From: Prevotella nigrescens | GTDB lineage: Bacteria; Bacteroidota; Bacteroidia; Bacteroidales; Bacteroidaceae | DNA: 64,000 nucleotides | Direction: 5' to 3' | Assembly (NCBI RefSeq): GCF_031191185.1 | Contig: NZ_CP133465.1 | Span: 492,001-556,000, forward strand | Shown here: one piece after another, positions 28,450 through 55,058 of the stretch | Layout: each line of letters opens with the position of its first letter | Position numbering within the stretch: the stretch's first letter is position 1 | Translations under genes and position numbers: made by a program | Notes under the pieces: generated by a model | What the model was told of the DNA's origin: nothing | The model's input: only the letters and a program-made list of their open reading frames with translations | The model's database searches: none

Positions 28450-28637
28450 TTTGTAAAAATAATTTTATAGAAAGGTCAAAGGCACGTTTTTACATTATAA
28501 AACTGCCTGTTTTGAGACGTAAAAGAGCCTGTTTTGCACGGTAAAAGGCATACTATTGGTGTGCAAAAGAATGAGTTTTGCAAAGCGTTGGTAATTAGAA
28601 TGTTATGCGAAAGAAATGTTTGCGAGAAATGTTTACA
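28450..28637 (-). repeat. 188-bp element, copy A (22-bp-period quasi-palindromes)
   Basis: Read on the minus strand it starts TGTAAACATTT and reaches CCAACGCTTTGCAAAAC after about 50 bases. Four further units of about 22 bases follow (TTTTGCACACCAA.., TTTTACCGTGCAAAA.., TTTTACGTCTCAAAA.., TTTTATAATGTAAAA..). The AT-rich tail ends TTTACAAA. The head aligns base for base with copy C at 54872, and overall length differs by one. It begins three bases after the stop of the minus-strand gene at 28641. Confidence 0.8.
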
Positions 28638-28640
28638 GTT

Positions 28641-29177
28641 CTAAGGCTCAATTTTTATGGATTTTAGTCCGGCTTTTATAAGCTTATACTCGCTTGCATT
28701 GGCTATGTATTCTTCTTTGTTGCCAGTGTTTAAGGTCTTCTTTGTTGGTGTTGTTGTACTGTTTTTGTTGCTCAATAATACGTACTGTTGTGCTTCGTTT
28801 AAGTTTACTACTGTGGGTTTTATGTCGGCAAAGATGGCAAATGTGATATACGCCTTATGTGTTTGATGATTGTAAAACACATATTTGCTGCCGTCAGCCG
28901 CTGCATTGTAAATGGTGAATACCTCTATTTGCGTTTGCTTGTCCGTGCTCTCCATGCTTTCTAAAGGTTCAATATCGCTCCCGTCAGCGCAGTAAATGCT
29001 TATCAATGTATCTCTTACACCGCCTTTGTTTAGTACTAAATGGCTTATGCAAGAGTCGTCGCTGTTGTTTGTAACAACCACGATCGTGTCCTTTGTTCCT
29101 ATATTCTGTCCGGCGTATGCATAGGTATTGGCTGCGAACAAAAGAAGTGTGATGAAGCTTTTATATAGATGTTTCAT
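28641..29177 (-). CDS. Exported protein of unknown function
   Basis: The 178-residue protein has a signal peptide with likely cleavage after AYA near residue 22. The mature part is rich in Thr, Asn, Asp and Val (DTIVVVTNNSDD, CISHLVLN), and a Thr/Lys-rich stretch lies near 140. No family is recognised. It is the last gene of the minus-strand block that contains the SUKH genes, but as an exported protein it need not share their role. Confidence 0.65.
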   Translation of the reverse strand: MKHLYKSFITLLLFAANTYAYAGQNIGTKDTIVVVTNNSDDSCISHLVLNKGGVRDTLISIYCADGSDIEPLESMESTDKQTQIEVFTIYNAAADGSKYVFYNHQTHKAYITFAIFADIKPTVVNLNEAQQYVLLSNKNSTTTPTKKTLNTGNKEEYIANASEYKLIKAGLKSIKIEP

Positions 29178-29215
29178 GTTCTTTTATAGGTTTATGTTTT
29201 CTGTTTCGTTCCGTC

Positions 29216-29476
29216 TTATTTTGCTGTCGTTCTTGTTTCTTCCTCTTCATAGCATAGTTCGACGGTAGACCAATGGCACGAACACGTAAAAGTAGAGTGG
29301 TTGTTTCGTTGAATTTGAGGTATGTTGATGGTGTCTATTTCGTTGTTATGCTTTCCCGTCATCTTGATATAGAGTTCAGAAAAGTGATAATCGGACACCT
29401 TTTGTTCGATGGTTGTAAAGCCTAAATGGTGTAACGACTGCACTAAAGCGGCAATAGGTTCGCACATTTTACTCAT
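29216..29476 (-). CDS. Small cytoplasmic protein of unknown function
   Basis: The 86-residue frame has no signal peptide or membrane segment. It contains a CSCHW cluster near residue 65 that might bind metal. It lies in line between a SUKH gene and the exported protein, with gaps of 38 and 63 bases. Size and place fit a small immunity protein, but nothing in the sequence shows that. Confidence 0.5.
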   Translation of the reverse strand: MSKMCEPIAALVQSLHHLGFTTIEQKVSDYHFSELYIKMTGKHNNEIDTINIPQIQRNNHSTFTCSCHWSTVELCYEEEETRTTAK

Positions 29477-29539
29477 TGAATAACTCCTTTCGCTTATATC
29501 TTATATTGGGTTCGTACCTTTCTTCTCGTTAAAATAGAC

Positions 29540-30010
29540 CTATTCAAATGCCTCCTCTTCCGTCTTCATACCATTGATAAAGTCGGTTAACGACTTTGCA
29601 ACAAGTTCCATCATATCCTCTTTATTGTCGTAATGTTCCAAGTTAGCAAAGAGAATGTGTCCTGTTTCAGCATCGTAGCAGTAGGGAAAGCCCCCGCCAT
29701 CAATTGCAAAAGGAATATGTTTCTTTTGTATTAAACACTTTTCTACGGTGAAAGTGTGCCATAATTTCTCTACAGTATATTGTGAAGAAGAAACCGAATG
29801 TTTGATGGACGCAATGTATTTCAGTGTATATTCGTTTTCCAAATCGTCTAAGTAAACGCTTCTATCGCCTTCTTCCACCTTTCCGCCGTTATGCTTTAAG
29901 TAGAAGTTTCTTATATCAGCAGGAAGGCAAAAGCCTATTTTGTGTTCTAAATCTAATATATCTGCCTCTGTAATAGGCGGCGCACTGTTCGTAATTTGAT
30001 AGTTTATCAT
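29540..30010 (-). CDS. SMI1/KNR4 (SUKH-1) family protein
   Basis: The 156-residue protein shows the SUKH pattern. The helix-strand start is ADILDLEHKIGFCLPADIRNFY followed by KHNGG. Then comes a central PFAIDGGGFPYCYDAETGHILFANLEH and the terminal helix VAKSLTDFING. SUKH proteins are a major group of immunity proteins that block secreted polymorphic toxins by binding their nuclease or other toxin domains. The target cannot be read from sequence. It is one of a run of such genes without a toxin gene beside it. Confidence 0.85.
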   Translation of the reverse strand: MINYQITNSAPPITEADILDLEHKIGFCLPADIRNFYLKHNGGKVEEGDRSVYLDDLENEYTLKYIASIKHSVSSSQYTVEKLWHTFTVEKCLIQKKHIPFAIDGGGFPYCYDAETGHILFANLEHYDNKEDMMELVAKSLTDFINGMKTEEEAFE

Positions 30011-30153
30011 TTTCGTTTTTTACTTACTTCAATTGCAAATATAGAGTTTATCTCTTATACAAACAAGCAAAGAACAATGTTAAGTTCCTTTTTTGTGCTT
30101 GTTGCACAGACACTTTTTGTATGTTTAAAGTTGTGCTACGTGGCTGTAAAACA

Positions 30154-30804
30154 TTAGTAGGAAAGACCTATTTCTATCCACGAATCAAGGTAATCCCAAA
30201 AGTCTATGTCCATCTTTGGTGCATCGTTGGTCCACCAAATCAGTGCTTTGGGGTTTTCCTTATTCTCTATATTGATGCAAAGAAATCCATTTCCGCCATT
30301 GTGAAGCACGTAGTAAGTCTTGTTTAAGTCGGTAGATTGCAATATCTCTTGGGGCAAACCCCATTCCGATTGGCTTAGGAAACGAACCTTTTCTAAAGGA
30401 AGTAATCCTAAACCACCGCTTATATTCTCGAACCAACCATTATGTAAATGCTTGTAAAAGTGCTGCAACTTGTCGGGCAATATTGCGATATGGCTGTCTG
30501 TTGTGGGCATATTGCCTACATATAGCACGTATTCTTCGTCGACCAACAGTAGGTAAACCATCTTAATTTGTTGCTGATGAACCACCAAAAACACATCTTC
30601 GAGTAGCTCATCCAATAAATGTAGCGTCTTAGGAAGTAGGCTGCTGAAGTCCGACCAGCGTTCTATAACGAGGGCTTTCTTCTTGTCCTTGTTTTCCTCC
30701 GTGAGAAGGAACGACCATGTTTTGGGTATTTTTATTTCATCAGATGCAGATAAAATTCTTGCTTCTGAGAGGTTGTTTTCTTGAAAAATGCTATCTATGT
30801 TCAT
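30154..30804 (-). CDS. Likely SUKH-superfamily protein
   Basis: The 216-residue soluble protein ends in a segment resembling the SUKH core (LPDKLQHFYKHLHNGW, then YYVLHNGGNGFLCINIEN and ALIWWTNDAP, then a closing helix IDFWDYLDSWIEIG). The first 90 residues look like an added domain. Family membership is a pattern judgement and less certain than for its neighbours. It sits 30 bases downstream of another two-domain SUKH-like gene, in the same strand and block. Confidence 0.6.
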   Translation of the reverse strand: MNIDSIFQENNLSEARILSASDEIKIPKTWSFLLTEENKDKKKALVIERWSDFSSLLPKTLHLLDELLEDVFLVVHQQQIKMVYLLLVDEEYVLYVGNMPTTDSHIAILPDKLQHFYKHLHNGWFENISGGLGLLPLEKVRFLSQSEWGLPQEILQSTDLNKTYYVLHNGGNGFLCINIENKENPKALIWWTNDAPKMDIDFWDYLDSWIEIGLSY

Positions 30805-30834
30805 TATGAAATATTGCTTTTACGATGTTGAAAC

Positions 30835-31821
30835 CTATTTAAAGATGTCTTGTCCTTCGAGTTCTATGCACCAATCTATCATTACTTCGTTGAACCAATC
30901 GCAGAAATCGGAGTTCACAACTTCGGGTTTATCTGTTTCAGAATAGTTATAGTTCGATGTGTAGAACACTATCTCGTTGTTTTGTTTGGTATCGAAGCAG
31001 TAGTAATTGCCTCTACCGTCGGGTGCAAATGGAACAATATGGCAGGGCATAGGCATCTGTGTTGCTTCGTGTTCAGTCTTGTATGCCTTTACAATATCAA
31101 AGGGCTTATTGCCTATTCCCAGTACTTCGTCGCCGCAAATACTTATTCCGTTAGAGAAGCGGAGGAGGCTTATGTAATCCTCTGGTAGCTGTATTGGAAT
31201 GTTTTCCTGTGCAAATAGGAGAGCATTGTTACTGATAGGAGCGAAACATTCAACGTATTTGTCTTTGAAAGATTGTATTCTTTGAATAATGGAATCGATG
31301 TTCGGACGGTCTTGTAAGTCGTATAATAGCGGGTTAGCGTCTGCTTCTATGTCGCTGTTTATCCACATTCCTTCGTCCTTTCTATACACATGGAAGCGGA
31401 AATAAATATCTTGTGTATTGGTAATATACACTATAAGGCAATACGGGCGAGGGTAAACGGCATTTAAACGCTGCTTAAACTGTTCTATAAAAGGCAGAAT
31501 ACAACTAAGCGAAAAGCCTTCGAAAGCCGACAAACAAATCTCGTTGAACCACATCTCCAAGCCTGTCCTGTCGCCTTGTTTCTCTATTTGTTCGGATATG
31601 TTGTTAATGAATGAAGTGTTAATATCGTTGTTTGCATCGTATAAAATGCAACATTCTGCCATTTTTATTTTGCTTAAAATGCTCTCGCAAACCTTGCTTA
31701 TCAATTCCTTATTTGCAGGAACCGACTTCTCTAAAAGCATTGCCATGCGTTGGTTTATCTTTCTCATATAGCAATAATTTTGTTCTTTATACTTATAATT
31801 CTTACTGTTATTGCCGTTCAC
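30835..31821 (-). CDS. Two-domain protein with C-terminal SUKH domain
   Basis: The 328-residue protein has an unrecognised N-terminal domain of about 190 residues and a C-terminal SUKH domain from about 195. The SUKH part shows IPIQLPEDYISLLRFSNG, then HIVPFAPDGRGNYYCFDTK, then SDFCDWFNEVMIDW. The start is uncertain; an ATG 18 codons in (MRKINQRM) is also possible. The extra domain may recognise a second toxin or help stability. It is the largest member of the array. Confidence 0.75.
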   Translation of the reverse strand: MNGNNSKNYKYKEQNYCYMRKINQRMAMLLEKSVPANKELISKVCESILSKIKMAECCILYDANNDINTSFINNISEQIEKQGDRTGLEMWFNEICLSAFEGFSLSCILPFIEQFKQRLNAVYPRPYCLIVYITNTQDIYFRFHVYRKDEGMWINSDIEADANPLLYDLQDRPNIDSIIQRIQSFKDKYVECFAPISNNALLFAQENIPIQLPEDYISLLRFSNGISICGDEVLGIGNKPFDIVKAYKTEHEATQMPMPCHIVPFAPDGRGNYYCFDTKQNNEIVFYTSNYNYSETDKPEVVNSDFCDWFNEVMIDWCIELEGQDIFK

Positions 31822-31894
31822 TGCTACGATGAAAGCAATTTGTTCCTGACCGAAAATGGTTGTCTTTCTTGTGCAATGTGTCTTAAAAACAAAT

Positions 31895-32383
31895 TTAAAA
31901 AGCCTCCGACAGCAGCGTTTCTATATCCCAACTCTCTGCCTTGTATATTGCATCGAAGTAGCCTTTTACCGCTACACCAATGCCTTCGCATACGCAATCT
32001 TTGTCGTCTGCAAAGTTCGGCGCGTAAATATCAATGCCTAAAACGGAAGAAGCAAAGCCAACATAGTCTTCTTCTAATAAATTATTATCGTGGGAAGATA
32101 GCTGCTGATAGATGTTTGATGACTTCATTCCGAATAGGTTTTTCCCTTCAAAAATGAGCTTTACTGTAGGTAACGGAACAAAGGTGAGGAAGAATAATCG
32201 TTGGTCGTGCTGATTATAATAGGCCAGAAAGTCTCCATGGTCATCTATAATGAAACTGTTGTTTCCATCGTTTTCTTCTCTGGTAGACTTGATTTTCAAA
32301 CTTGTTTTAGCTAAAATATCCTTCCGATAATCCCCGAAAACAAATTCATTCACGCCAATAAGAGGTTGGATTATATATTCCAT
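31895..32383 (-). CDS. Possible immunity protein, family not recognised
   Basis: The 162-residue soluble protein (start MEYIIQPLIGVNEF) carries a stretch near residue 45 (FIIDDHGDFLAYYN) and a closing region rich in acidic residues. I cannot place it in a family, though its size, lack of export signal and position between SUKH genes fit an immunity protein. It is 73 bases upstream of the next gene in the transcript. Confidence 0.55.
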   Translation of the reverse strand: MEYIIQPLIGVNEFVFGDYRKDILAKTSLKIKSTREENDGNNSFIIDDHGDFLAYYNQHDQRLFFLTFVPLPTVKLIFEGKNLFGMKSSNIYQQLSSHDNNLLEEDYVGFASSVLGIDIYAPNFADDKDCVCEGIGVAVKGYFDAIYKAESWDIETLLSEAF

Positions 32384-32444
32384 GTCTTTGTAAATAGTAA
32401 AGTTTTGTTGATAGATATGCCTGCTTCTGTTCTCAAAGAATAAG

Positions 32445-33053
32445 CTATATATCGTCTCTATTAGGGTCGTTTAGCAGTCTATCCCACTCTTCAAAGGTGA
32501 GAGGAGGCAGGCCTTCCTTTGCTCGCATAGCGTTTCTCAGCTCAACAGACTTAGGGGTAATGGTTACCTTACCGCTTGCAATAGCTCGCTTAATCTCCTC
32601 TTTTGTTGGCAAAGGGGTAGGGGTTAGCTTTTCAATAAAGTCGTTAAGGTTTTCCGAAACCAGCGTTGGGTATTTGTTATTTCCCTCTAATCCCCAATCG
32701 TTTTCTTCGTGAAACCAATAGTAAACCTTACCTGTAATCTTGTTAATACATAGCCAATCGCCCCCATCAACACTTGCAATGGGCATCAATTCCTCTGGCA
32801 TTCTGCCCTCATAGTCGTTGTATGTTGCGATAATATCATCGTTTTTGTTTTCCGAAAATCCAAGAAAATAGTTAATGGTAAACTCTGTTTCCTTATCCTT
32901 ATAATGGTTTTTATGAGGCTTGCAGACATTATTTTGCATCAACAAATCCTTGAGATGAGAAGGCAAAACAGAACCTATTGTATGTTCTAACTCGTTGATT
33001 TTCTCCGCCATAGCATTTGAAGCTAAAGGCTCTAATACATGTATTACATTCAT
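32445..33053 (-). CDS. SUKH-family protein, duplicate copy 1
   Basis: The 202-residue SUKH protein has the motifs ELEHTIGSVLPSHLKDLL, PIASVDGGDWLCIN and GKVYYWFHEE, and a closing helix SENLNDFIEKL. A C-terminal extension contains AKEGLPPLTFEEWDRLL. The start at 33053 (MNVIHVLEP) is chosen because the twin gene at 33735-34352 begins exactly there; a longer frame to 33092 exists. The two proteins differ at only about eight positions before their last few residues, and the DNA is nearly identical. The last residues differ (DPNRDDI here). Confidence 0.85.
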   Translation of the reverse strand: MNVIHVLEPLASNAMAEKINELEHTIGSVLPSHLKDLLMQNNVCKPHKNHYKDKETEFTINYFLGFSENKNDDIIATYNDYEGRMPEELMPIASVDGGDWLCINKITGKVYYWFHEENDWGLEGNNKYPTLVSENLNDFIEKLTPTPLPTKEEIKRAIASGKVTITPKSVELRNAMRAKEGLPPLTFEEWDRLLNDPNRDDI

Positions 33054-33138
33054 ATCCTCTTTATAAGTATTCTTGAAAGCTATTATATGCACATGCTAAA
33101 CTGGTTTTTATTTTATTTCGTTGATAGTTTTTTGCGTG

Positions 33139-33732
33139 CTATTGCTCCAAAGGTGGCAGTCCGTCTTTTATTCTTTTCTCGTTTATTAGCTTCAATAATC
33201 GGGGCGAATAGGTAACACTTACGACTTCCCTTTTGTCTTCTTTGTCTTCTTTTTTAGGCTCAATTCTACTGATAAAGTCGTTTAATGATTTTGCAACCAA
33301 TATTAAATCGTCGCCTATTGGAGTATCGTGCGACCAGTAATAGATATTGCCCAAGCTGCTTTCTTCTAAGGAATAGACTATTAAATCGCCACTTGCACCC
33401 TCGCATAATGGGAAGAACTTTATGCTTATTTGCTCCTTACAATAATACATTTTGATGCTTTTCTCAACACTTCTCTGAGTATTTCCAAAGCCCAAAATAC
33501 CACTAACGTAAAGTAATTCGTCGCTATTCGCCTGCTTTTCCAACGGAGATACCACCATTTCTTCATTGAAATAGGAGAACCCATAGGTAGTAATAAACTG
33601 CAAAACAGTATTATCTGGAATTGCGCCCAACGTCCTTTTTACTTCTTCTAAGAACGAAGTTACATCATAACTCTGGTTTAATTCTCTCTCCTTAGAAAAA
33701 GAAATAAGTTGTTTAAAACCTTGTATATCCAT
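33139..33732 (-). CDS. SUKH-family protein between the duplicates
   Basis: The 197-residue protein has a SUKH layout (FLEEVKRTLGAIPDNTVLQF, then FPLCEGASGDLIVYSLEES, GNIYYWSHDTP and VAKSLNDFISRI). Its tail ends RIKDGLPPLEQ, echoing the AKEGLPPL tail of the flanking duplicates. It is not a close copy of them in the core. Two bases separate it from the following duplicate. A shared tail motif on otherwise different cores suggests exchange of 3' ends within the array. Confidence 0.8.
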   Translation of the reverse strand: MDIQGFKQLISFSKERELNQSYDVTSFLEEVKRTLGAIPDNTVLQFITTYGFSYFNEEMVVSPLEKQANSDELLYVSGILGFGNTQRSVEKSIKMYYCKEQISIKFFPLCEGASGDLIVYSLEESSLGNIYYWSHDTPIGDDLILVAKSLNDFISRIEPKKEDKEDKREVVSVTYSPRLLKLINEKRIKDGLPPLEQ

Positions 33733-33734
33733 AT

Positions 33735-34352
33735 TTAAAAAGCTCCGTTTAACTCCCTATTAGGGTCGTTTAGCAGTCTATCCCACTCTTCAAAGGTGAG
33801 AGGAGGCAGACCTTCCTTTGCTCGTATAGCGTTTTTCAGCTCAACATACTTAGGAGTAATGGTTATCTTACCGCTTGCAATTGCTCGCTTAATCTCCTCT
33901 TTTGTTGGCAAAGGGGTAGGGGTTAGTTTCTCAATAAAGTCGTTAAGGTTTTCCGAAACCAGCGTTGGGTATTTGTTATTTCCCTCTAATCCCCAATCGT
34001 TTTCTTCGTGAAACCAATAGTAAACCTTACCTGTAATCTTGTTAATACATAGCCAATCGCCCCCATCAACACTTGCAATGGGCATCAATTCCTCTGGTAT
34101 TCTGCCCTCATAGTCGTTGTATGTTGCGATAATATCATCGTTTTTGTTTTCCGAAAATCCAAGAAAATAGTTAATGGTAAACTCTGTTTCCTTATTTTTA
34201 TAATGGTTTTTATGAGGCTTGCAGACATTATTTTGCATCAACAAATCCTTGAAATGAGAAGGCAAAACAGAACCTATTGTATGTTCTAACTCGTTGATTT
34301 TCTCCACCATAGCATTTGAAGCTAAAGGCTCTAATACATGTATTACATTCAT
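33735..34352 (-). CDS. SUKH-family protein, duplicate copy 2
   Basis: This 205-residue protein is nearly identical to the product of 32445-33053. The changes seen are single conservative ones (for example Ala16 to Val, Leu33 to Phe, Met to Ile), plus a different end (DPNRELNGAF). DNA identity begins at the ATG and ends a few codons before the stop. That limit fits a recent duplication or gene conversion confined to the reading frame. Its stop is two bases before the start of 33139-33732, and it lies three bases after the stop of its upstream neighbour. Confidence 0.85.
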   Translation of the reverse strand: MNVIHVLEPLASNAMVEKINELEHTIGSVLPSHFKDLLMQNNVCKPHKNHYKNKETEFTINYFLGFSENKNDDIIATYNDYEGRIPEELMPIASVDGGDWLCINKITGKVYYWFHEENDWGLEGNNKYPTLVSENLNDFIEKLTPTPLPTKEEIKRAIASGKITITPKYVELKNAIRAKEGLPPLTFEEWDRLLNDPNRELNGAF

Positions 34353-34355
34353 ATC

Positions 34356-34925
34356 TTATTTGTAATAGCCAACAAAACTTTGCCAAAACTCAACTCCTTT
34401 GGCGTTTACAGACTCTCGTATCATGCTTATGAACTCGCTTTCCTTACCATTCCACACTGCGTATTGCCCTGTACCCATCGCCCGTACAAGCATTTCGAAG
34501 TTGTCGGCTATTAGTATTCGGTCTTCATAAGCGGTCTCGCTATCGATTGCATAGACCTTTCCTGTTGCACATTCCAACAAGATTGTAGATGGATCTCCAT
34601 TAGCAATAATCATCAAATCGTACTGATGCAGAATGTCATAATCGGCATATTCCAAGTTCCTTTGTACTATCCAATTCAGCGTTTCCTCATCGTTTATCCC
34701 GAATTGGTAGCTCAAAAAACCGAAATTTCCCCAGTTGTAGCTAAGTATTAACTCTGTGAATATCTGGCTTAACGTACCAATATGTAGCTTAGTTTGTAGT
34801 TTTACGATTTCCGAACGGGGGATAACGGCTTCCTTTAAAATAAGCCCTTCCGTAATTTCAGGGTCTACATCGCGAGTCTCTTTCATAATAGAAAGCTCGA
34901 TTTCTTGCATTGTTAATAACTTCAT
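34356..34925 (-). CDS. Likely SUKH-superfamily protein
   Basis: The 189-residue protein keeps SUKH-like elements: a helix with TKLHIGTLSQIFTELILSYN, then MIIANGDPSTILLECATGKVYAID, then an ADNFEMLVRAMG helix. A further 30 residues follow. It is soluble and has no signal peptide. The match is weaker than for its neighbours. Only three bases separate it from the next gene, so translation is likely coupled. Confidence 0.65.
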   Translation of the reverse strand: MKLLTMQEIELSIMKETRDVDPEITEGLILKEAVIPRSEIVKLQTKLHIGTLSQIFTELILSYNWGNFGFLSYQFGINDEETLNWIVQRNLEYADYDILHQYDLMIIANGDPSTILLECATGKVYAIDSETAYEDRILIADNFEMLVRAMGTGQYAVWNGKESEFISMIRESVNAKGVEFWQSFVGYYK

Positions 34926-34949
34926 TTGATATGTTTGATATATCTTTTT

Positions 34950-34975
34950 CTATATTTTACCATAGCGTACTGCCC
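34950..34975 (-). repeat. Short copy of the 3' end of the gene at 35632-36060
   Basis: Twenty-six bases match the last codons and stop of the 35632-36060 gene (35632-35657) with three mismatches. In the matching frame they read RAVRYGKI-stop beside AVHYAKI-stop, and an in-frame stop lies just upstream. It looks like the residue of a lost or displaced gene end. Confidence 0.5.
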
Positions 34976-35027
34976 TCTATCGGTGCCATAAACTATGCTT
35001 TTTTTATTTGTTATAGCTCTCTTTATA

Positions 35028-35621
35028 TCAGCAAACACGCCTACCCTTGCTTTCAGAATATATCTTATAATTCTGGTCTTTCTCCGGATTCCAATAGGTA
35101 AATACGTATTTTGAAACACCAAATATGGTGCGATGCTCTCTTTGTTTAAGCTTAAATTGGGTTCTTAAATAGCCAGATAGTTTTTCTAACTCGTATAACT
35201 TGAAGTATTGAGAGAACATAACTAAGGGCATACAAAGCCTTATTCGTTTATCGCTAAATACAAAAACGATAGACGAAGTTATCTTTCCTTGCCCTGCACA
35301 CCTTATATATAACAAGTTGTCTATGGTGTTTGTGTATTTCAGTTTACCTCTTGTATAGAAATTAATAGTGTGGTTATCAACAATCTCAACCCGTTTTTTG
35401 CGAAGCAAACACACTATTATTAAACCACAAATAATATATGGGATAGCACTTTCATAGCGAAAATAGCGATGAGAAGTGCCAAGAAACGAATTAATAATAT
35501 GGTCTATTAGATAACTGAAAACAAGCAATCCTAATATATGGATTATACTTAAAGGCGATGCATAGAAGCTAAATTCCTTCTTCTTCTCCTGTATTTTGGC
35601 TGTTTCCTTTGGTACTGTCAT
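35028..35621 (-). CDS. Membrane protein of the immunity array
   Basis: The 197-residue protein has two transmembrane helices (about 24-45 and 60-76). A soluble C-terminal part (about 80-197) then alternates strands much as a PH-like domain does (KRVEIVDNHTINFYTRGKLKY, SIVFVFSDKRIRLCMP). This is a pattern-based suggestion. Membrane-bound PH-like proteins occur among immunity proteins for membrane-active toxins. It lies 10 bases after the next gene upstream. Confidence 0.6.
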   Translation of the reverse strand: MTVPKETAKIQEKKKEFSFYASPLSIIHILGLLVFSYLIDHIINSFLGTSHRYFRYESAIPYIICGLIIVCLLRKKRVEIVDNHTINFYTRGKLKYTNTIDNLLYIRCAGQGKITSSIVFVFSDKRIRLCMPLVMFSQYFKLYELEKLSGYLRTQFKLKQREHRTIFGVSKYVFTYWNPEKDQNYKIYSESKGRRVC

Positions 35622-35631
35622 TTCCTATTTT

Positions 35632-36060: not shown

Positions 36061-36083
36061 AGTGTACGAATGGTTCTATTGGC

Positions 36084-36515: not shown

Positions 36516-36554
36516 ATTACATTTACAAAAAATATATTGTTTATTGGTTTTACG

Positions 36555-38340: not shown

Positions 38341-38528
38341 TGTAAATATATTTCAAAGCTATTTAAATCTGTAACGTGCTCTATGTTAATGTGTTACAAA
38401 AGGGTGTATTTTGCATTGTAAAAACCCCATTTTTGCGATGCAAAAATATGGTTTTTGCACTTCAAAAGTATGGTTTTTGCAATGCAAAAACGTACTTATT
38501 GTTTTCCATTAAATTTATATTTACAAAA
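38341..38528 (+). repeat. 188-bp element, copy B (22-bp-period quasi-palindromes)
   Basis: The head is TGTAAATATATTTCA, the first unit is ATGTGTTACAAAAG, then units TTTTGCATTGTAAAA, TTTTTGCGATGCAAAAA, TTTTTGCACTTCAAAA and TTTTTGCAATGCAAAAA at about 22-base spacing, and the tail ends TTTACAAA. Unit positions match copy C to within one base. It stands about 90 bases upstream of the pseudouridine-synthase gene. The rest of the 710-base gap holds the array promoter and AT-rich sequence. Confidence 0.8.
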
Positions 38529-45186: not shown

Positions 45187-47382
<2,196 letters not shown>

Positions 47383-47386
<4 letters not shown>

Positions 47387-48204
47387 CGTTTTATTAGTTT
47401 TTCAGGACAAAAGAAATGGTTTACCGCTCCGTGTCCGCTGCCAATGCACACGTTTGCCCCCTCTCTTATGGCTTGCGAGATATAGTTTTTAGCCATTGCA
47501 ACGGCTTCTTCGAGCCTTAAACCACGAGCTAAGAAAGCCGCAATCGCCGAAGAGAGCGTGCAGCCTGTGCCGTGTGTGTTGAACGAATCGATGGTTTCGG
47601 TTTCAAAGATTAGCGGTTTGCTGTTGTCGGAAAAGTAAAGACGGTCGGTCTTTGTGCTGTCTTCTATGTGTCCACCTTTTATTAATAGTGCCTTGCAACC
47701 AAGTTTTAGGATTTCTTCAGCAGCCTCGTCAATGTCTGCTACCGTTGCGATTGTACGGCGTGCCAAAACTTCTGCTTCGGCAATGTTGGGCGTCAGCACT
47801 GTCGCCATAGGTAAAAGATGTTGGCAGAAGATGCCAATCGCTTCCTCTTCCATAAGTTTATTGCCCGATGTGGAAATCATTACGGGGTCTATGACGAGTG
47901 GAATATCGTTGTATTCAGCCAATACTTGTGCGATTGTCTTGATGTTTTCGGCACACCCCACCATACCTATTTTAATGGCATCAGGGCGCAAATCGGTGAG
48001 AACGGCACGCAGCTGAGCCTCTACAACCGCAGCTTCGATGTTCTGAATGCAGAACACTTGCTTCGTGTTTTGTGCAGTAACAGCCGTAACAACCGATGAG
48101 GCGTAACACCCTAAAGCCGACATTGTTTTAATATCTGCCTGTATTCCTGCGCCTCCTCCGCTGTCGGAGCCTGCTATCGTAAGAGTTTTTACATAGTGCA
48201 TCAT
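47383..48204 (-). CDS. thiD: Hydroxymethylpyrimidine kinase / phosphomethylpyrimidine kinase
   Basis: ThiD phosphorylates HMP and HMP-P. The protein (273 residues from the ATG at 48204) begins with TLTIAGSDSGGGAGIQADIKT, the substrate loop, and has the anion hole NTHGTGCTLSSA near the end. A TTG six codons upstream would lengthen it; the tandem ATG at 48204/48201 is preferred as it lies nearer to the family's usual start. First gene of the thi operon, below the TPP riboswitch. Confidence 0.93.
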
Positions 48205-48300
48205 AAGCCATGAAAGTAACAAATGGTACTTTTCGGAATAGCCAAAGTATAGGGGGATACACCAATAAGGATAGATAAACGCAAATGTCTGTATATTCGC

Positions 48301-48394
48301 ACTTCCTACGGCAGCATTACCTGCATCAGGTTATACGGGTATAATCTCAGCTCACTCAATGGAGTGGCACCCCTTTTTCGGATAAACCGAAAGT
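48301..48394 (-). promoter_or_regulatory. TPP riboswitch of the thi operon
   Basis: On the minus strand the core is plain: GGGGTGC, then CTGAGA, then ATACCCGTATAACCTGATGCAG and GTAATGCTGCCGTAGGAAG. This is the THI-box aptamer, which binds thiamine pyrophosphate and lowers expression. A closing stem (ACTTTC with GGAAGT) can form if a small extra hairpin (CGG-TTTAT-CCG) is looped out. About 95 bases remain to the thiD start for the expression platform. Confidence 0.93.
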
Positions 48395-48405
48395 CTATCT
48401 GTGTG

Positions 48406-48436
48406 CAAAGGTACGATAATGTTCTGCAATTGCAAA
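48406..48436 (-). promoter_or_regulatory. Promoter of the thi operon
   Basis: On the minus strand: TTTG (48433-48436), a 19-base spacer, TACCTTTG (48406-48413). Start near 48399, so the transcript opens almost directly with the riboswitch. Confidence 0.75.
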
Positions 48437-48505
48437 ATTTAAGTCAAAGTTTTTCCCTATCAACAATTTTTCTTTTATTTTCCCTTTGGTTTGCCAAAAT
48501 TTGCG

Positions 48506-48513
48506 TACATTTG
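48506..48513 (+). promoter_or_regulatory. -7 element of the desulfidase gene
   Basis: TACATTTG, 28 bases before the ATG at 48541. The best upstream TTTG (48485-48488) is 17 bases away, slightly close for the consensus. Confidence 0.5.
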
Positions 48514-48540
48514 CAATCCAACTACTAATTTATAATAGAA

Positions 48541-49839
48541 ATGCTTGAGAAAAACATACGCGAACAAATCATTGATTTGATGCATCGACAGGTTGTTCCT
48601 GCCGTTGGCTGTACCGAACCTATGGCGGTAGCACTCTGTACTGCACGTGCCACAGAGCTGTTGGGGCAGAAACCAGAGAAAATAAGTGCATTCTTGTCTG
48701 CAAACATCTTAAAGAACGCAATGGGAGTGGGTATTCCCGGTACAGGAATGATAGGCTTGCCAATCGCCATTTCGTTGGGTGCGCTCATAGGAAAGTCGGA
48801 GTATCAGCTTGAAGTAATTAAAGACCTGACGCCCGAAACCTTGGAAGAGGGAAAGCAATATGTAAGCGAAAACCGCATAGACATAAAGCTGAAGGAAGGA
48901 ATTACCGAGAAATTGTACATCGAAATGACGTGCGAGGCAGGTGGAAAGAAAGCTACTGCCATTATTTCAAAGACACATACAAACTTTGTCTATGAAGAAG
49001 CCGACGGCAAAGTGCTGCTTGACAAGCAGGTTCCTGCAGAAGAAGGTGCGCCAACTGATAACAAAGACATTCAGTTGAACTTGAAAATGGTGTGGGATTT
49101 CGCAACTACGACACCCATAAACGAAATAGAATTCATTCTCGAAGCTAAGCGTTACAATATGAATGCTGCTGAAGAGGCGTTGAAAGGTAACTACGGACAC
49201 TGTGTCGGTAAAACAATGGACCGCCCATTGAGCCGCGGTTTGTTCGGCAACAGTATCTATTCGCACATACTTTCTAAAACTGCGTCGGCTTGCGATGCAC
49301 GTATGGGCGGCGCAATGGTGCCTGTTATGAGCAACAGTGGTTCGGGAAATCAAGGCATTTGTGCAACAAACCCAGTTGTAGTGTTTGCCAAAGAGAACGA
49401 AAACACACCCGAAGAGTTGGTGCGTGCGCTCACATTGAGCCACCTCACCGCCATTTATATCAAGCAAAACCTCGGTACCTTGTCGGCACTCTGTGGCTGT
49501 ATCGTTGCCTGTACGGGCTCAAGTTGTGGCATTACTTATCTGATGGGTGGCGACTACAACAACATTTGCTATGCTGTAAAGAATATGATAGCCAACCTTA
49601 CAGGTATGGTTTGCGACGGTGCAAAGCCAAGTTGCGCACTGAAAGTTTCGTCAGGCGTATCTACTGCCATACTTTCTGCAATGCTTTCAATGGAAAATCA
49701 CCACGTAACAGAGGCAGAAGGAATCATCGACAAAGACGTCGACAAGTCTATTCGCAACCTTACCAGCTTGGGCAAGGACGCTATGAACGAAATGGATATA
49801 ATGGTCTTAGACATTATGACAAGTAAAGGTGCTTGCTAA
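48541..49839 (+). CDS. L-cysteine desulfidase / serine dehydratase alpha-like protein
   Basis: The 432-residue protein belongs to the UPF0597/CyuA family, related to the alpha chain of iron-sulfur L-serine dehydratase. Evidence: VVPAVGCTEPMAVALC near the start, GTGMIGLPIA, a central NSGSGNQGICATNPV and cysteines in SALCGCIVACTGSSCGITY that fit a [4Fe-4S] site. Known members degrade cysteine to pyruvate, ammonia and sulfide. It is divergent from the thi operon across about 320 bases. Since a histidine-type Thi4 needs sulfide, a metabolic link is possible but is inference. Confidence 0.88.
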   Translation: MLEKNIREQIIDLMHRQVVPAVGCTEPMAVALCTARATELLGQKPEKISAFLSANILKNAMGVGIPGTGMIGLPIAISLGALIGKSEYQLEVIKDLTPETLEEGKQYVSENRIDIKLKEGITEKLYIEMTCEAGGKKATAIISKTHTNFVYEEADGKVLLDKQVPAEEGAPTDNKDIQLNLKMVWDFATTTPINEIEFILEAKRYNMNAAEEALKGNYGHCVGKTMDRPLSRGLFGNSIYSHILSKTASACDARMGGAMVPVMSNSGSGNQGICATNPVVVFAKENENTPEELVRALTLSHLTAIYIKQNLGTLSALCGCIVACTGSSCGITYLMGGDYNNICYAVKNMIANLTGMVCDGAKPSCALKVSSGVSTAILSAMLSMENHHVTEAEGIIDKDVDKSIRNLTSLGKDAMNEMDIMVLDIMTSKGAC

Positions 49840-49860
49840 AACATACACCTAAAAAATATG

Positions 49861-49897
49861 AAAAAGGTTCGCATACAATCCGTGTGCGAACCTTTTT
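49861..49897 (+). terminator. Rho-independent terminator after the desulfidase
   Basis: AAAAAGGTTCGCA pairs with TGCGAACCTTTTT over a loop of about 11 bases and ends in a T-run. It starts 22 bases after the stop. Confidence 0.85.
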
Positions 49898-50005
49898 GCT
49901 AATATTATCAATGAAAAACGTATCCTTAACGTGAGTTCGATGATTTTATCGGTTGTTTCATCGTGTGCGAAACCGCTTTCATACTCCATAAGTAAGGTGC
50001 GTTTA

Positions 50006-50072
50006 TATACCACTCGTGGTATACACTTGCATATCACTCGTGGTATATGCTCATACCCCACTCGTGGTATAC
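50006..50072. repeat. Three units of a 24-bp quasi-palindromic repeat
   Basis: CACTCGTGG occurs at 50011, 50035 and 50059, exactly 24 bases apart. Each is the centre of a small hairpin such as TATACCAC-TC-GTGGTATA. A degraded fourth unit may follow near 50083. It lies between the desulfidase terminator and the 3' end of the TonB receptor gene. Apart from this the 49898-50155 spacer shows nothing. Confidence 0.75.
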
Positions 50073-50155
50073 GTTTGTGTATTACGAGTACAGTATCACC
50101 CTATTTACAAACAATTAAGGGCTGTGAACCTGCATCTTGTCAGCTTGAACTCCCA

Positions 50156-52615
50156 TTAGAGGGTGAAGCTAACGCCTGCATACCATGTTGCACCATATAC
50201 AGGAGCATACATAAATGCTGCGTCGTCGCCATGCTTTTCGTCTTGCAGATAGCTGAAGATGTTCTTTCCGCCACCATAAACGCTGAACGAACCGAAACGC
50301 TTAGCTACACGGAGGTTCCACAAAGTGAAAGTGTCTGTCTTCTTAATCTTAGATGTCTTTGGCGCATCTTCAGAGTTATAGTCGATGTACATCTTGCCTT
50401 GCAGAGAACCTGTGAGTGCAAACGACCAAGTACCAGGAGTGTATTCGAGGTTTAAGTCGCCCGTCATAGCAGGGAAACGAGAGATGTACTTGCTGTCTTT
50501 GGCGTAAGCTAAACGCTGAGGAGCTTCTTTGCATTCGTCTGATTCTGGGTCAGACCATTCTGCGCGTTCATGTTTGAACTTGCCTTGGTTGATTGTCCAG
50601 TTCACACCAGCCTTGAAATCTCTGAATGGATTCCACTTTACGCCAAGTTCAATACCTTGCACGTATGCGTCGTCTACGTTCTCCCACTGGTATGTATAGC
50701 CGAATTTCTTCACTTCATCGCTTGCAGGAGCAAACTGTATCTTGTCCTTCAAGTCGGTGCGGAAAATGTTTGCGCTCAACTGAACGTTTCTTGCATAGTA
50801 GTCGGCAGAGAGGTTGTAGCTGATAGAACGCTCACCCTTGAGACTTGACGACTTCCATACACGTGGCGAACCAGAGCAGAGGTGCAAGTCTTCAGAGAAA
50901 CCGTAAGGAGCACGGAAGCCTGTACCAATATTTGCACGGAGTACGAATGAAGGGCTCACAGAATACTTGATGGCAAGACGAGGACTGAACGAAGTCTTGC
51001 TGAAGTGGGTCTGTGGGAAGGCATAGTCAGACACTTTTTGGCTTGTTGTGTATTCTTCGCCAGAAGAGTGGGTGTCTAAACGCAAGCCAGGCACAACGGT
51101 AAGGTTGGGCAATATGTTCCATTCGTCTTGAACAAAGAAGCCAAATTCGTTGGCGTGCTTCTTACCGATAGATGTGTAAGGAATACCGAAGTATGGGTTA
51201 CCTCTTTCTTCTTCAGCCGAGATAATGTAAAGACCAGTTTCGTTCAAACGGGTAAAGTAGCCTTGAACACCCGCAAGCAAAGTGTGATTTCCACAGTTCT
51301 GGGTCAGCGTAAGCGAAGGAGTGAATGTATTTTCCTTGGCAATGTATGGTCGCATGAGCTCTATATCGGGGTCAATACCGTCAGGATGCGTTGCATCTTT
51401 GGTTGCCTCTCTGTAGTTAGACAGGAAAGTATCGTTGGTTGCGTTGCGCTTATGGTGCACGTAAGCCATTGCAAGGTTCAGTTCCGAGTGCGAACCGAGT
51501 GGCAAAGTGTAGGCCATATCAGTTGAAATGCGGTTGGTTCTGATGTTCTCGGTGCCTGCTGAGAAGGGGTTTAAGAACAGGTTGTCCTTCATGTTTCCGC
51601 CATAACGGAGTTCGTCCATTGCCTTTGCGCGAAGCACGAGCTTGTCGTTCTTTGCAAAGGGACTATACACGTAGATGCTTGCACCGACGTTGTTCATAAG
51701 GCTGTAGACCCTGTCGGAAATCTGGTCCTTATGCTTTACCTCGTCGCGGGTCAGTCCGTCCTGTGTTGCATCGACGGCATCTTCTTCCGTGCGTTGTGCC
51801 GTAACCAGCAAGCCAATATTCCGATAGCGTATAGAACCGGCACCTTTGTAGCTCTTGTGCCCGAAGTTTCCATACTGAATGTCGGCATTTACCGATGGCT
51901 CGAAGGTGGGTTCCTTCGAGATAATGTTGATTGCGCCAGCCACAGCACTACTTCCATAGAGGGCAGAGCCTGCGCCTTTCACCACTTCGAGGCGGTCTAT
52001 GTCGTTCGTACCCATCTGTTGCAAGCCGTAAACACCTGCAAGACCAGAGTACACGGGTTCGCCATCGAGCAGCACCTGTGTGTGTTCGGCACCAAGACCC
52101 TGCATGCGAACCATTGAGAAGTTGCAGAATTGGCATTGCTGTTCTACACGAATACCGGGCACTCCTTCGAGTGCATCGTATAGGTTTAGGGCATTTTTGC
52201 GTTTCAAAGCCTGCGATGTCAGCACTTCCGTGCGGATAGGAACGTTCTTTACAAAGTGCTCGGTACGTGTGCCTGTTACCACAACTTGGCTAAGCTCTAA
52301 AGCGTCCTTGTCCAGTTTAAAGTAGACGGCAGTACCTTTGCCGCTGACCATTTCAACCTCAATTTCCTGTTCCTGATAACCCTCGAGGTTGGCAACAACA
52401 ATTTGTTTTCCTACCGGCAGGTCCGTCATCTTAAAGTGTCCCGAAGCGTCGCACTTGGTTTTTAAGGTCGTACCTTTCACGGTAATGGTTGCATGAGGGA
52501 GGTGTTCACCTGTCTCTTTGGCTTTAACATCTCCAAAAAGCATGGCGTCTGTACCTTGTGCCATGGATATAAGGGCACAAAACAGACTTAATAATAAAAT
52601 AAGATTTCTTTTCAT
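50156..52615 (-). CDS. TonB-dependent outer-membrane receptor
   Basis: The 819-residue protein has a signal peptide (about 1-20), a carboxypeptidase-regulatory-like domain (25-110), a plug (about 115-235; NALNLYDALEGVPGIRV, VKGAGSALYGSSAVAGAINIIS) and a 22-strand-type barrel ending in GVSFTL. It uses TonB energy to import a bound ligand. The plug carries CQFCN (CxxC), a mark of a Bacteroidota subgroup whose ligand is not clear to me; metal, haem or cobalamin are possibilities. It is a single-gene unit with a consensus promoter upstream. Confidence 0.88.
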   Translation of the reverse strand: MKRNLILLLSLFCALISMAQGTDAMLFGDVKAKETGEHLPHATITVKGTTLKTKCDASGHFKMTDLPVGKQIVVANLEGYQEQEIEVEMVSGKGTAVYFKLDKDALELSQVVVTGTRTEHFVKNVPIRTEVLTSQALKRKNALNLYDALEGVPGIRVEQQCQFCNFSMVRMQGLGAEHTQVLLDGEPVYSGLAGVYGLQQMGTNDIDRLEVVKGAGSALYGSSAVAGAINIISKEPTFEPSVNADIQYGNFGHKSYKGAGSIRYRNIGLLVTAQRTEEDAVDATQDGLTRDEVKHKDQISDRVYSLMNNVGASIYVYSPFAKNDKLVLRAKAMDELRYGGNMKDNLFLNPFSAGTENIRTNRISTDMAYTLPLGSHSELNLAMAYVHHKRNATNDTFLSNYREATKDATHPDGIDPDIELMRPYIAKENTFTPSLTLTQNCGNHTLLAGVQGYFTRLNETGLYIISAEEERGNPYFGIPYTSIGKKHANEFGFFVQDEWNILPNLTVVPGLRLDTHSSGEEYTTSQKVSDYAFPQTHFSKTSFSPRLAIKYSVSPSFVLRANIGTGFRAPYGFSEDLHLCSGSPRVWKSSSLKGERSISYNLSADYYARNVQLSANIFRTDLKDKIQFAPASDEVKKFGYTYQWENVDDAYVQGIELGVKWNPFRDFKAGVNWTINQGKFKHERAEWSDPESDECKEAPQRLAYAKDSKYISRFPAMTGDLNLEYTPGTWSFALTGSLQGKMYIDYNSEDAPKTSKIKKTDTFTLWNLRVAKRFGSFSVYGGGKNIFSYLQDEKHGDDAAFMYAPVYGATWYAGVSFTL

Positions 52616-52644
52616 GTAGTGCTACATTAATTGATTTTAGTGTG

Positions 52645-52676
52645 CAAAGGTATTTATTTTTACAATATCCAACAAT
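52645..52676 (-). promoter_or_regulatory. Promoter of the TonB-receptor gene
   Basis: On the minus strand: TTG (from about 52673-52675), a 20-base spacer, TACCTTTG (52645-52652). Start near 52638, about 22 bases before the ATG. No riboswitch is evident. Confidence 0.6.
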
Positions 52677-52971
52677 ACCTAATGTTTAGTAAAAACAATA
52701 AAATTTTATTTTTCTTGCAATATGTTACTATCCTTTAAATGTAAGTATTATTTAGTTGTTTTATTTGTTTAGTATATGTGCATAATAATGCTTAAACTGT
52801 AAAAATGTTTATTTTCATTCATTGTGTTACGAATATTGTTTGCGGAAAACAAGTGCGTTGGCACTCTTTTTGTACATTATGCATACCTAAAAGCAATGAT
52901 TTTTATAGGTAAACCTAATGTTCCTATAGTTGAAGAAGTAGGGTATTTCCTTTCTAATATAGGTATACGCC

Positions 52972-53003
52972 TTTGGCAGTGTGGGGATTTACCGCTATAT
53001 TTG
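52972..53003 (+). promoter_or_regulatory. Promoter of the Gly/Asn-rich lipoprotein gene
   Basis: TTTG (52972-52975), a 20-base spacer, TATATTTG (52996-53003): an exact match to the consensus. Start near 53010, about 42 bases before the ATG. The rest of the 435-base gap to the TonB gene has no convincing gene. Confidence 0.75.
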
Positions 53004-53051
53004 CAGCAGAAATATTGAATAAAAATATAACGGAATAGGAGGAATAAAGTT

Positions 53052-54128
53052 ATGAAACGTCAGAATATAGTCTTTATGAGTGCCATTGCAGCAATGATAT
53101 CTCTCGCTTCGTGCGACAGTTTATTAGCCTTGGACGGAGGTTCTTCTGGTGTCATTTATACGTCAGGCGGCTCTGTTTATAACGCTGGCTACGGACCAGA
53201 CCATGGCGGTGTCTATGCTTATTCGGGCATGCGATACGACGATGCACGCCGTCAGGCACTGTTCTTGTCCGACAAAATGGCTTACGAATTGGGACTTACC
53301 GATGCTCAATACGAAGCTATTTACGAAATAAACTTAGACTATTTGCTCAATATGCGTGGCGAAAACTCTGTTTATGGTAACTACTGGGCACGCCGGAACA
53401 GCGACATTTTCTATGTGTTGAATGCATCTCAATACAATTATTTTGTAAATATGGACTATTTCTATCGTCCAGTCTATTGGTACGATGACACATACGTGTT
53501 CAGCATTTACAACCGTTACGACAATCCACGCTGCTTCTATCGTCCGCGCCCCGTCTACTACGACACTTATAGAGGTGGCAGAAACCTTGGCGAACAAAGC
53601 TATTATGCCGGCAGATTTGGTAGACGAACCGGACAGCCAGTAATAATTAATCGTAACAATGGCAGCTTTGGTAGCTATAGCAATAATAGTCCGCGTATTG
53701 TCCAAACACCACAAAATGGCAACAACGGGAACCGTCCAACGTTTGGAAACCAACGCAGAGGTAATGATGGCATGGACAGAAGAGGGTTCGGAAACGCAAC
53801 AATACAAGGGCGCCCATTCGATGTTCAGCCGCAGCAGGCGCCACAACGTTCCAGCAATAACAGTAGTTTTGGTGGCTCTCGCCAAGGAACAACTTCTCAG
53901 CCGTCCGGTTTCAGTGGCAGCTTTGGCAGGAACAATGGATCGGAGCGTACCTTCTCGTTTGGTTCAGAAAGTCGCCGTCCCGCTACGCAGCCGTCTAACA
54001 GCGGACTCAATAATAATGGCAGCAGCCGTGGTTCGTTTGGCAACAGCACTCCACGTACGAGTATGCAGCCAAACCCAACCATCGAACGTCCTGCACAAAA
54101 CAACGGTTCTTTCGGAGGACACAGATAA
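53052..54128 (+). CDS. Lipoprotein with Gly/Asn/Ser-rich low-complexity tail
   Basis: The 358-residue protein has a lipobox (SLASC, Cys21). A folded region follows at about 55-180, with a helical stretch (DDARRQALFLSDKMAYELGLTDAQYEAIYEIN split over about 62-95) and a Tyr/Arg-rich segment (YRPVYWYDD, FYRPRPVYYDTYRGG). From about 190 the protein is a disordered tail of repeated SFG, NNGS and TQPS motifs. Such tails are common in surface-exposed lipoproteins. No family name is known to me. It is followed after 12 bases by an unknown soluble-protein gene. Confidence 0.75.
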   Translation: MKRQNIVFMSAIAAMISLASCDSLLALDGGSSGVIYTSGGSVYNAGYGPDHGGVYAYSGMRYDDARRQALFLSDKMAYELGLTDAQYEAIYEINLDYLLNMRGENSVYGNYWARRNSDIFYVLNASQYNYFVNMDYFYRPVYWYDDTYVFSIYNRYDNPRCFYRPRPVYYDTYRGGRNLGEQSYYAGRFGRRTGQPVIINRNNGSFGSYSNNSPRIVQTPQNGNNGNRPTFGNQRRGNDGMDRRGFGNATIQGRPFDVQPQQAPQRSSNNSSFGGSRQGTTSQPSGFSGSFGRNNGSERTFSFGSESRRPATQPSNSGLNNNGSSRGSFGNSTPRTSMQPNPTIERPAQNNGSFGGHR

Positions 54129-54140
54129 GAAATAATAGAT

Positions 54141-54845
54141 ATGCGCACGACAACTGTTAGCCGCCACAAGGTGGTGGCAGCAATGACAAGGGGATTTTTC
54201 CAAGCCTTTGTAAGTGGTCAGATAGATGCTACACAGCCCGGGAAGACAGACATAACGCCCTTGGAGTACAAGAAAATAATAGCCGACAACTACGAAAAGT
54301 TGTCGGCTTGTTACGTTTCAGTGATGTTTCCAATTCTCATTCGTCTGAACTATGCTGACGGAGAAGCGGTTGCGGAAGCTATGAAGCGCAGGAACTTCAG
54401 TAATTCAACATCGCCGAAGATGCTTCTCCGCTATGCTTGTGGCTCGAAAGAGCTGTACGATACTGCCATTAAAGAGTATCAGCAACAGATAGCGACCTTG
54501 CTTTCGGGACGATTGCAAACCATTTCGGAGTTCTTTGAAAATTACGAGTGCGGTGCAGAAACGACCGAAGCGGTTGATGTAGCCCTCGCCATTCGCTCTA
54601 TGGTACGCACGCAAATGATGGCGTACAGCACGGTTCTGAAAGCTGCCAACCCAGAGTTGGCAACCCTGCACCAAGCTACCGTCTTCCGTCTGATGCTCCA
54701 CGGCACAATGGCTTTGTTGCACGAAGAACCCATTTCGCTCGAAGGCGACAACTTGGAACTTATCTTTCGCCGTGTGGCACTTAATTCCGACAACTTTGAA
54801 GTGCTGATGAACGAGATGAATCAAGCCTACGAAGATTTGGTGTAA
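54141..54845 (+). CDS. Cytoplasmic protein of unknown function
   Basis: The 234-residue protein has no signal or membrane segment and is helical throughout by eye. I see no motif. It lies 12 bases after the lipoprotein gene, so the two are likely cotranscribed. Repeat element copy C begins 26 bases after its stop and separates it from the convergent kinase gene. Confidence 0.65.
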   Translation: MRTTTVSRHKVVAAMTRGFFQAFVSGQIDATQPGKTDITPLEYKKIIADNYEKLSACYVSVMFPILIRLNYADGEAVAEAMKRRNFSNSTSPKMLLRYACGSKELYDTAIKEYQQQIATLLSGRLQTISEFFENYECGAETTEAVDVALAIRSMVRTQMMAYSTVLKAANPELATLHQATVFRLMLHGTMALLHEEPISLEGDNLELIFRRVALNSDNFEVLMNEMNQAYEDLV

Positions 54846-54871
54846 AAGTAGGAATAATCAGGCAACAAGAG

Positions 54872-55058
54872 TGTAAATATTTTTCACAAGAGTGTCTCTT
54901 GTGTAATCGTCTTGTTATCAACGTGTTGCAAAACCTATTGTTTTGCATTCCAAAAGCGGCTGTTTTGCACGGTAAAAGCGTAGGTTTTGCATTGCAAAAG
55001 AGCCGCTTTCGCAATGCCAAGCGCAGTTATTACTTTTTAACAGAATTATCTTTACAAA
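54872..55058 (+). repeat. 187-bp element, copy C (22-bp-period quasi-palindromes)
   Basis: The head is TGTAAATATTTTTCAC..., the first unit CAACGTGTTGCAAAACC, then TTTTGCATTCCAAAA, TTTTGCACGGTAAAA, TTTTGCATTGCAAAA and a degenerate TTTCGCAATGCCAA at 22-base spacing. The tail AGAATTATCTTTACAAA closes it. It fills the space between two convergent gene ends (stops at 54845 and 55073). Confidence 0.85.

Follow-up and report, generated by a model that had tools for sequence, protein, structure and literature searches.

A dispersed 188-bp repeat of Prevotella is built on a fixed geometric plan, in which short A and T tracts alternate every 11 bp. These tracts, the ends of the repeat and its total length are conserved, while the words lying between the tracts have turned over at sites shared between species. 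The repeat occurs three times in the stretch of DNA analysed here, 64,000 bp of the Prevotella nigrescens genome (assembly GCF_031191185.1, contig NZ_CP133465.1, positions 492,001 to 556,000; hereafter the window, numbered from its first base), and relatives with the same lattice of tracts are found in other Prevotella. The element is almost certainly PINSR (Naito et al. 2015), an identification that rests on length, host, copy number and placement, since the published consensus appears only in Figure 4A of that paper and its letters were not compared. We give an even chance to the explanation that it is a host-level DNA element, a curved or protein-bound lattice maintained by selection.

Anatomy and identity of the repeat

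A preliminary description of the window had reported three copies of an element with a head, an array of 22-bp units and a tail. Direct reading of the window finds all three, as follows (words are the 7-base spacers inside the array).

28450..28637, minus strand: copy A of the 188-bp, PINSR-type element, sequence decayed and lattice retained (profile model 1-188, 116.7 bits)
28477..28579, minus strand: lattice of copy A, A4/T4 tracts at 11-bp steps (three overlapping pattern matches, 1 mismatch each)
38341..38528, plus strand: copy B, with divergent words, predicted to fold into a single long hairpin (100.9 bits; fold z -6.2)
38398..38500, plus strand: lattice of copy B (two exact pattern matches and one with 1 mismatch)
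54841..55073, plus strand: probable full extent of copy C, including weakly conserved outer 31 and 15 bp (column information, 48 copies)
54872..55058, plus strand: copy C, near the family consensus (188.8 bits; fold z -5.6)
54872..54885, plus strand: left end of copy C, TGTAAATATTTTTC, near-invariant across the family (family end consensus)
54886..54929, plus strand: head of copy C, variable in sequence and fixed in length (column comparison)
54930..55010, plus strand: lattice of copy C, four AAAA-N7-TTTT blocks with a 22-bp period (words CCTATTG, GCGGCTG, GCGTAGG and GAGCCGC)
55011..55058, plus strand: tail of copy C with the right end GAATTATCTTTACAAA (sequence)

The three copies align with a mean column identity of 75%. 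Each block of the array consists of AAAA, a 7-base word, TTTT and a 7-base linker, so that an A or T tract recurs each 11 bp. With a tolerance of 2 mismatches, the pattern (AAAAN7TTTTN7)x3 matches the window eight times, every time within the three copies, and gives no match in 100 dinucleotide shuffles. A bending sum for ten such tracts (hand arithmetic, 10.5 bp per turn) comes to about 6.7 of 10 at 11-bp spacing and to about 2.2 at 12 bp. A candidate dyad in the head, GTAAC-N4-TGATNATCA-N4-GTTAC, was rejected, having no match in the window (central T fixed, up to 3 mismatches) and one among 198 genomes of the order.

Further copies exist both in this genome and in its relatives. Searching the P. 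nigrescens genome by BLAST with copy C, with 40 of 126 candidates scored, returned at least 74 matches when hits on both strands are counted. A sequence-only profile model built from 27 copies, with 150 of 2150 candidates scored, gave at least about 107 distinct loci once both-strand duplicates were merged; 95 of these were analysed, and 12 low-scoring loci were left out. At least 150 copies are present in a two-chromosome relative, G403, which is probably P. intermedia (the name is inferred). Another relative, G017, is probably P. falsenii, judging from the word CCGTAGG that it has in common with named P. falsenii contigs. When more copies are aligned, the 22-bp period and the common length persist. 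Both ends are matched in 51 P. nigrescens copies, of which 40 measure 188 bp, six 187 bp and five 189 bp. In G403, where the 150 best-scoring copies were listed, 107 fetched and 106 used, all 106 are exactly 188 bp long and gap-free, despite a mean of 17.6 head and tail mismatches per copy. Almost no variation is seen in the family ends TGTAAA and TTTACA. Their consensus sequences, TGTAAATATTTTTC / TGTAAAGATAATTC, form an imperfect 14-bp inverted repeat agreeing at 11 of 14 positions (manual count). The original extent of 187–188 bp stands as a length but not as an outer limit: across 48 full copies, weaker conservation continues for about 31 bp beyond the left end and 15 bp beyond the right, and the repeat unit is nearer to 234 bp once this is counted.

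The preliminary description knew of no named family of this kind, which was an error, as the element matches PINSR. In the published account, PINSR is a non-coding, intergenic repeat of 188 bp with 177 copies in one P. intermedia strain and 184 in another, also present in P. nigrescens, group-limited in distribution and credited with a role in rearrangement (Naito et al. 2015; PMC4755523). The 188-bp unit (40 of 51 P. nigrescens copies, 106 of 106 in G403), the high copy number in the inferred P. intermedia and the presence in P. nigrescens all agree with it. PINSR is described there without terminal inverted repeats, whereas the copies studied here carry the imperfect 14-bp repeat; this discrepancy is read as a refinement of the published description and not as a defining difference. 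Section 3.4 of that paper makes no mention of a 22-bp period, a lattice or constraint (PMC4755523), and the lattice anatomy was not found in print among the titles listed on PINSR or the 188-bp repeat and on Prevotella repeats or A-tracts. The repeat itself was thus already known and was named in 2015; the 11-bp lattice anatomy and its constraint appear to be new.

Several other bacterial repeats invite comparison. BOX, RUP and Correia repeats are likewise modular and intergenic and may be mobilised in trans; to our knowledge, none has an 11-bp A4/T4 lattice. The BrickBuilt miniature inverted-repeat transposable element (MITE) of Porphyromonas gingivalis is similar in its leader, short tandem array, tail, small inverted-repeat ends and intergenic position. 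However, as described, its length depends on repeat number (84–991 nt), it has 19 copies in one strain, and it has IS5-family-like ends (GAGACC) and 23-nt repeats, in contrast to the fixed length, TGTAAA ends and 22-bp unit found here (PMC4596501). REP and BIME sequences are also intergenic palindromes, mostly downstream of genes, for which gyrase and termination have been proposed, but REPs are described as 20–40 bp long and mostly tagged by GTAG or CGTC, unlike this 188-bp element with its 11-bp lattice and untagged consensus ends (PMC3733652).

Constraint on tracts and freedom between them

The sharpest contrast is seen in G403. Over 106 copies, the lattice tracts contain 1 mismatch in 3392 cells, against mismatches at other A/T columns of 720/3074 in heads, 317/2226 in tails and 220/1590 in words and linkers (14–23%). 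Certain columns flanked by invariant tracts differ in as many as half of the copies, and plain homogenisation of whole arrays alone therefore does not explain the pattern. Selection by score is also an unlikely cause, since the 150th G403 copy still scores 146 bits and a change in a tract would cost only a few bits by our estimate. In P. nigrescens, 55 of the 95 copies were used (51 with both ends and 4 added by name). Here the contrast is weaker than in G403 yet plain: 114/1760 in tracts vs 470/1594 in heads, 261/1154 in tails and 265/825 in words and linkers.

Sites shared by the two species allow copies to be compared pairwise. At 12 sites where both flanks match between G403 and P. nigrescens (flank distances are unequal in the pairs L340-L034 and L361-L026), mismatches amount to 15/384 in tracts, 8/168 in right ends and 20/168 in left ends, and to 79/336 in words, 62/252 in linkers, 138/528 in the head and 99/419 in the tail. 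The difference between tracts and words plus linkers (141/588) has a Fisher p of 3e-19. The words of P. nigrescens differ from those of G403 at shared sites L018 and L081, recognised by both flanks, and at L071 and L082, recognised by one. The earlier suggestion that conserved geometry with drifting sequence points to selection is thus strongly supported by the tract constraint, the shared sites and the fixed length.

What keeps the lattice

A role at the level of DNA would account for the fixed length and spacing and the freer letters. PINSR would then be a non-coding dispersed chromosomal repeat whose working part is its geometry, with AAAA and TTTT tracts alternating at 11 bp and held at a fixed distance from the near-invariant TGTAAA and TTTACA ends. 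Tracts on a single face of the helix would curve the DNA. They may also be evenly spaced half-sites for a dimeric or polymerising DNA-binding protein, readable in either direction, and the less constrained spacer words would be free to change between them. Curvature or the bound protein would be the target of selection, the putative partner may be a nucleoid or chromosome-architecture protein, and the palindromes would turn copies into recombination sites. Of the three options originally put forward (a protein-binding array, a structured RNA or a mobile element moved by other enzymes), a putative DNA-level protein-binding array fits best, judged from the sequence alone, and the original interpretation is upheld to that extent; the fit is poorer for a fixed RNA structure and for a neutral, dead repeat.

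Several observations weigh against such a host-level element. The G403 copies were drawn from the 150 best-scoring, and lower scorers lie outside this sample. The tracts of P. nigrescens do decay (6.5%), which means a weaker constraint in that species. Selection on the element itself, together with gene conversion, could be an alternative keeper of intact tracts. An architectural grid is disfavoured by the arrangement of copies on the G403 chromosomes, where spacing is uneven and strand order lacking (gaps random to clustered, strands random). The outgroup genome G196 has two places with a lattice that begins on TTTT, which is the reversed control. Finally, P. nigrescens has an excess of inverted word pairs (see below) that a simple tract-binding model does not need.

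The alternative that survives best, although we hold it to be unlikely, is a MITE-like mobile repeat. Lattice and ends would be sites for a transposase or helper acting in trans, only intact copies would spread, gene conversion would preserve old ones, and the constraint on tracts would reflect selection on the element and not on the host. The short imperfect terminal inverted repeat is compatible with mobility, as are the near-identical arrays abundant in G403 (32 of 47 have one of two word sets). A 347-bp unit in G017, made of MITE parts and the element, is bounded by AACAAT copies, one end being ACGTGAGTTCGG and the other a truncated MITE part; its site is empty in G403, and in P. nigrescens the site lacks the element. 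In G403, 8 of 47 copies share a MITE left flank by flank BLAST, the left flank of P. nigrescens copy L068 is matched in 9 of 106, and a strict text search found the MITE box in 3 of 106 copies only. However, the clean insertion is a MITE composite, one end of which lacks a MITE terminus. For the plain element no clean insertion was seen and no target duplication was found, no systematic search for duplications having been made. Moreover, 22 of the 106 G403 copies lie at sites with at least one flank shared with a P. nigrescens copy, and these are as intact as the other 84. Most strain-specific conjugative elements are also reported to be without PINSR, and about three quarters of regions to be common to the strains (PMC4755523). 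Movement by other enzymes is thus observed for MITE-embedded copies and was not observed for the plain ones.

Copies located within or next to a MITE that has ACGTGAGTTCG-type ends are L281, L284, L285, L296, L300, L301, L304 and L326 in G403 and L154:12611-12959 in G017. These ends resemble those published for ISPg3 and MITE239 of Porphyromonas, and one composite of MITE and element shows a 6-bp duplication, its site being empty in a relative. Carriage by phages or plasmids was rejected: there was no phage match, and the plasmid matches were two P. nigrescens records, one of them sized as this genome's own small contig.

With regard to REARRANGEMENT and movement, the left flank of copy C adjoins the G403 copy C1:218391, and its right flank adjoins the opposite-orientation copy C1:196423, a split such as an inversion between two copies would leave. 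The flanks joined by L082 and L016 likewise belong to two different G403 copies. Copy A has one flank in common with copies at G403:C1:281323-281510 and G017:C52:7366-7555. Copy B lies opposite in orientation to the element beside the same gene in G403 and G017, where the neighbourhoods are rearranged too. At L025:1400-1724 (about 243,117-243,441 of contig C2 of the P. nigrescens genome), a 325-bp palindrome is centred on a PINSR array, its outer 100-bp arms being 99% identical. It replaces parts of the head and tail and resembles either an inverted duplication of the fold-back kind or a fault of assembly.

A structured RNA, or a bidirectional transcription terminator at gene ends, is a considerably weaker candidate and one we regard as improbable; the transcribed array would fold into hairpins with A-rich and U-rich sides. 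In its favour, the predicted folds of copies B and C are much stronger than those of shuffles (z -6.2 and -5.6), and 31 of the 78 classified P. nigrescens copies (of 95) lie in convergent gaps, vs 4 of 19 gaps in the window. In G403, 15 of 49 classified copies (of 89) are convergent. Looser open reading frame (ORF) calls make 41 of 93 copies convergent, and copy C itself sits between the convergent ORFs 54141-54845 (plus) and 55073-56734 (minus). An annotated record of 98 kb with nine copies shows no convergent trend (2 convergent, 4 tandem, 2 divergent and 1 within a hypothetical gene). Strong gene-end placement was consequently rejected, and of the original claim that copies sit at gene ends or in promoter regions a modest gene-end preference is retained. 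The copy within an annotated hypothetical gene is L396:3180-3366 (NZ_CP082843.1), and this gene is probably a spurious call. Palindromic candidates from Bacteroidetes, many of them predicted terminators, are included in a survey of microbiome RNAs; their sequences were not compared with the element (PMC8040213).

Inverted pairs among the spacer words of P. nigrescens also count in favour of a structured RNA. After 12 of the 95 P. nigrescens copies were dropped because four blocks could not be read, 50 of the 83 parseable copies hold a reverse-complement word pair (6 or 7 of 7 bases), against 22.6 +- 3.6 expected from within-slot shuffles (0 of 1000 reach 50), while direct repeats are not in excess (14 vs 15.5 expected). 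Inverted pairing as a universal rule was rejected, because the excess is not general across species (300 shuffles each). Inverted pairs number 5 vs 1.7 in shuffles for P. disiens, 7 vs 3.4 for a pool of three genomes labelled SRR2134673, and 3 vs 1.0 for Bacteroidales RGIG6215, which also has 9 direct repeats vs 1.6. The excess is weak in P. falsenii (18 vs 14.3) and P. pallens (3 vs 1.4) and absent in P. histicola (29 vs 34.7), P. bivia (3 vs 4.5) and Hoylesella (5 vs 7.5); Prevotella sp. RGIG4852 and Bacteroidales RGIG9171 have direct rather than inverted repeats. The commonest words occur in both orientations for 15 of 16 inspected in P. histicola, P. falsenii, P. bivia and Hoylesella, and mostly in a single orientation in P. 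pallens and RGIG9171.

A fixed RNA fold was rejected. Copy A folds no better than shuffles (z -0.6), pairing partners vary between copies, and column covariation over 87 copies is led by sub-family markers of the tail, not by base pairs. Wobble shows no strand bias either (GT 9 and AC 7 among 25 single mismatches). In addition, the tracts are more constrained than the words that would pair, indels are absent even from would-be loops across the 106 G403 copies, and the window has no Rfam match above the curated threshold. The structured-RNA option of the preliminary description is therefore not supported as far as a fixed fold is concerned.

Least plausible of all are mostly neutral, functionless old repeats, in which hairpin-driven template switching would make and repair palindromes and copy words inverted: the inverted but not direct word excess in P. 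nigrescens, the L025 palindrome and a G017 array 44 bp shorter at the site of copy C are in line with this, but such a process does not yield 1/3392 tract mismatches beside 14–23% at other A/T columns or equal lengths in all 106 G403 copies, and the inverted excess is missing from P. histicola, P. bivia and Hoylesella.

Relatives of the lattice and their meaning

The exact three-block lattice is present in 17 of 100 genomes of the genus, this one included, its relatives there carrying different spacer words, and occurs up to 229 times in G403 and 144 times in G017; the same pattern at 12-bp spacing is found in none of the 100. Among 296 genomes drawn phylum-wide, the P. nigrescens genome is the sole match to the pattern in its AAAA-first form, the other 295 Bacteroidota genomes having none. 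Close copies (E 1e-46), sought in 60 relatives, were confined to the P. nigrescens genome and G017, with the next match at E 7e-16; G403 was added later. A scan of named genomes gave at least 80 loci, of which 57 come from Prevotella, other Prevotellaceae, Hoylesella or Xylanibacter (manual count). Prevotella among the loci listed include P. histicola, P. falsenii, P. disiens, P. pallens, P. bivia, P. brunnea and metagenome-assembled genomes (MAGs). Of the others listed, 17 loci come from Bacteroidales MAGs, and six lie elsewhere, for example in Treponema, Clostridia, Odoribacter and Saprospiraceae. Among the arrays from Bacteroidales MAGs, several show longer runs of A and may have no relation to the family. 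The 23 distinct arrays read in P. bivia retain the lattice with different words; L398, L407, L421 and L422 have TATCA shortly leftward, as in PINSR (by eye), and TTTACA stands rightward in several arrays.

Other repeats lie in the window. A loopless 27-bp perfect inverted repeat is found at 6185-6238, with G403 copy L304 at a roughly corresponding place. Three 24-bp repeats around ACCACTCGTGGTATA at 50005-50085 are retained in G403, and in G017 a MITE composite with PINSR stands there instead. Repeated hairpins of other types (ACGTCCGTAC..., ACGTAATTATGTT...) occur at 11583-11632, 19028-19100, 2744-2786 and 3668-3710, and two nearby ORFs contain a 300-bp duplication with 97% identity (32455-32754 and 33754-34053).

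Taken further, PINSR may represent, in one species group, a class of chromosomal elements found throughout Prevotella, a tentative proposal that we find possible but doubtful. A putative protein would read a fixed 11-bp A4/T4 lattice at 100–200 loci, and the 7-letter words filling this lattice would be a small set particular to each species, used in either orientation and changed genome-wide in concert.

A repeat whose function was unknown when it was described in 2015 now shows an unusually sharp constraint, with exact length and tract spacing and freer letters between. Some copies are located at junctions of rearrangements between species. The function is accessible to simple binding, curvature and footprint assays, and the element can serve as bait for a putative Prevotella DNA-binding protein. 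PINSR also provides an example where the property conserved appears to be the geometry of the helix and not the letters.

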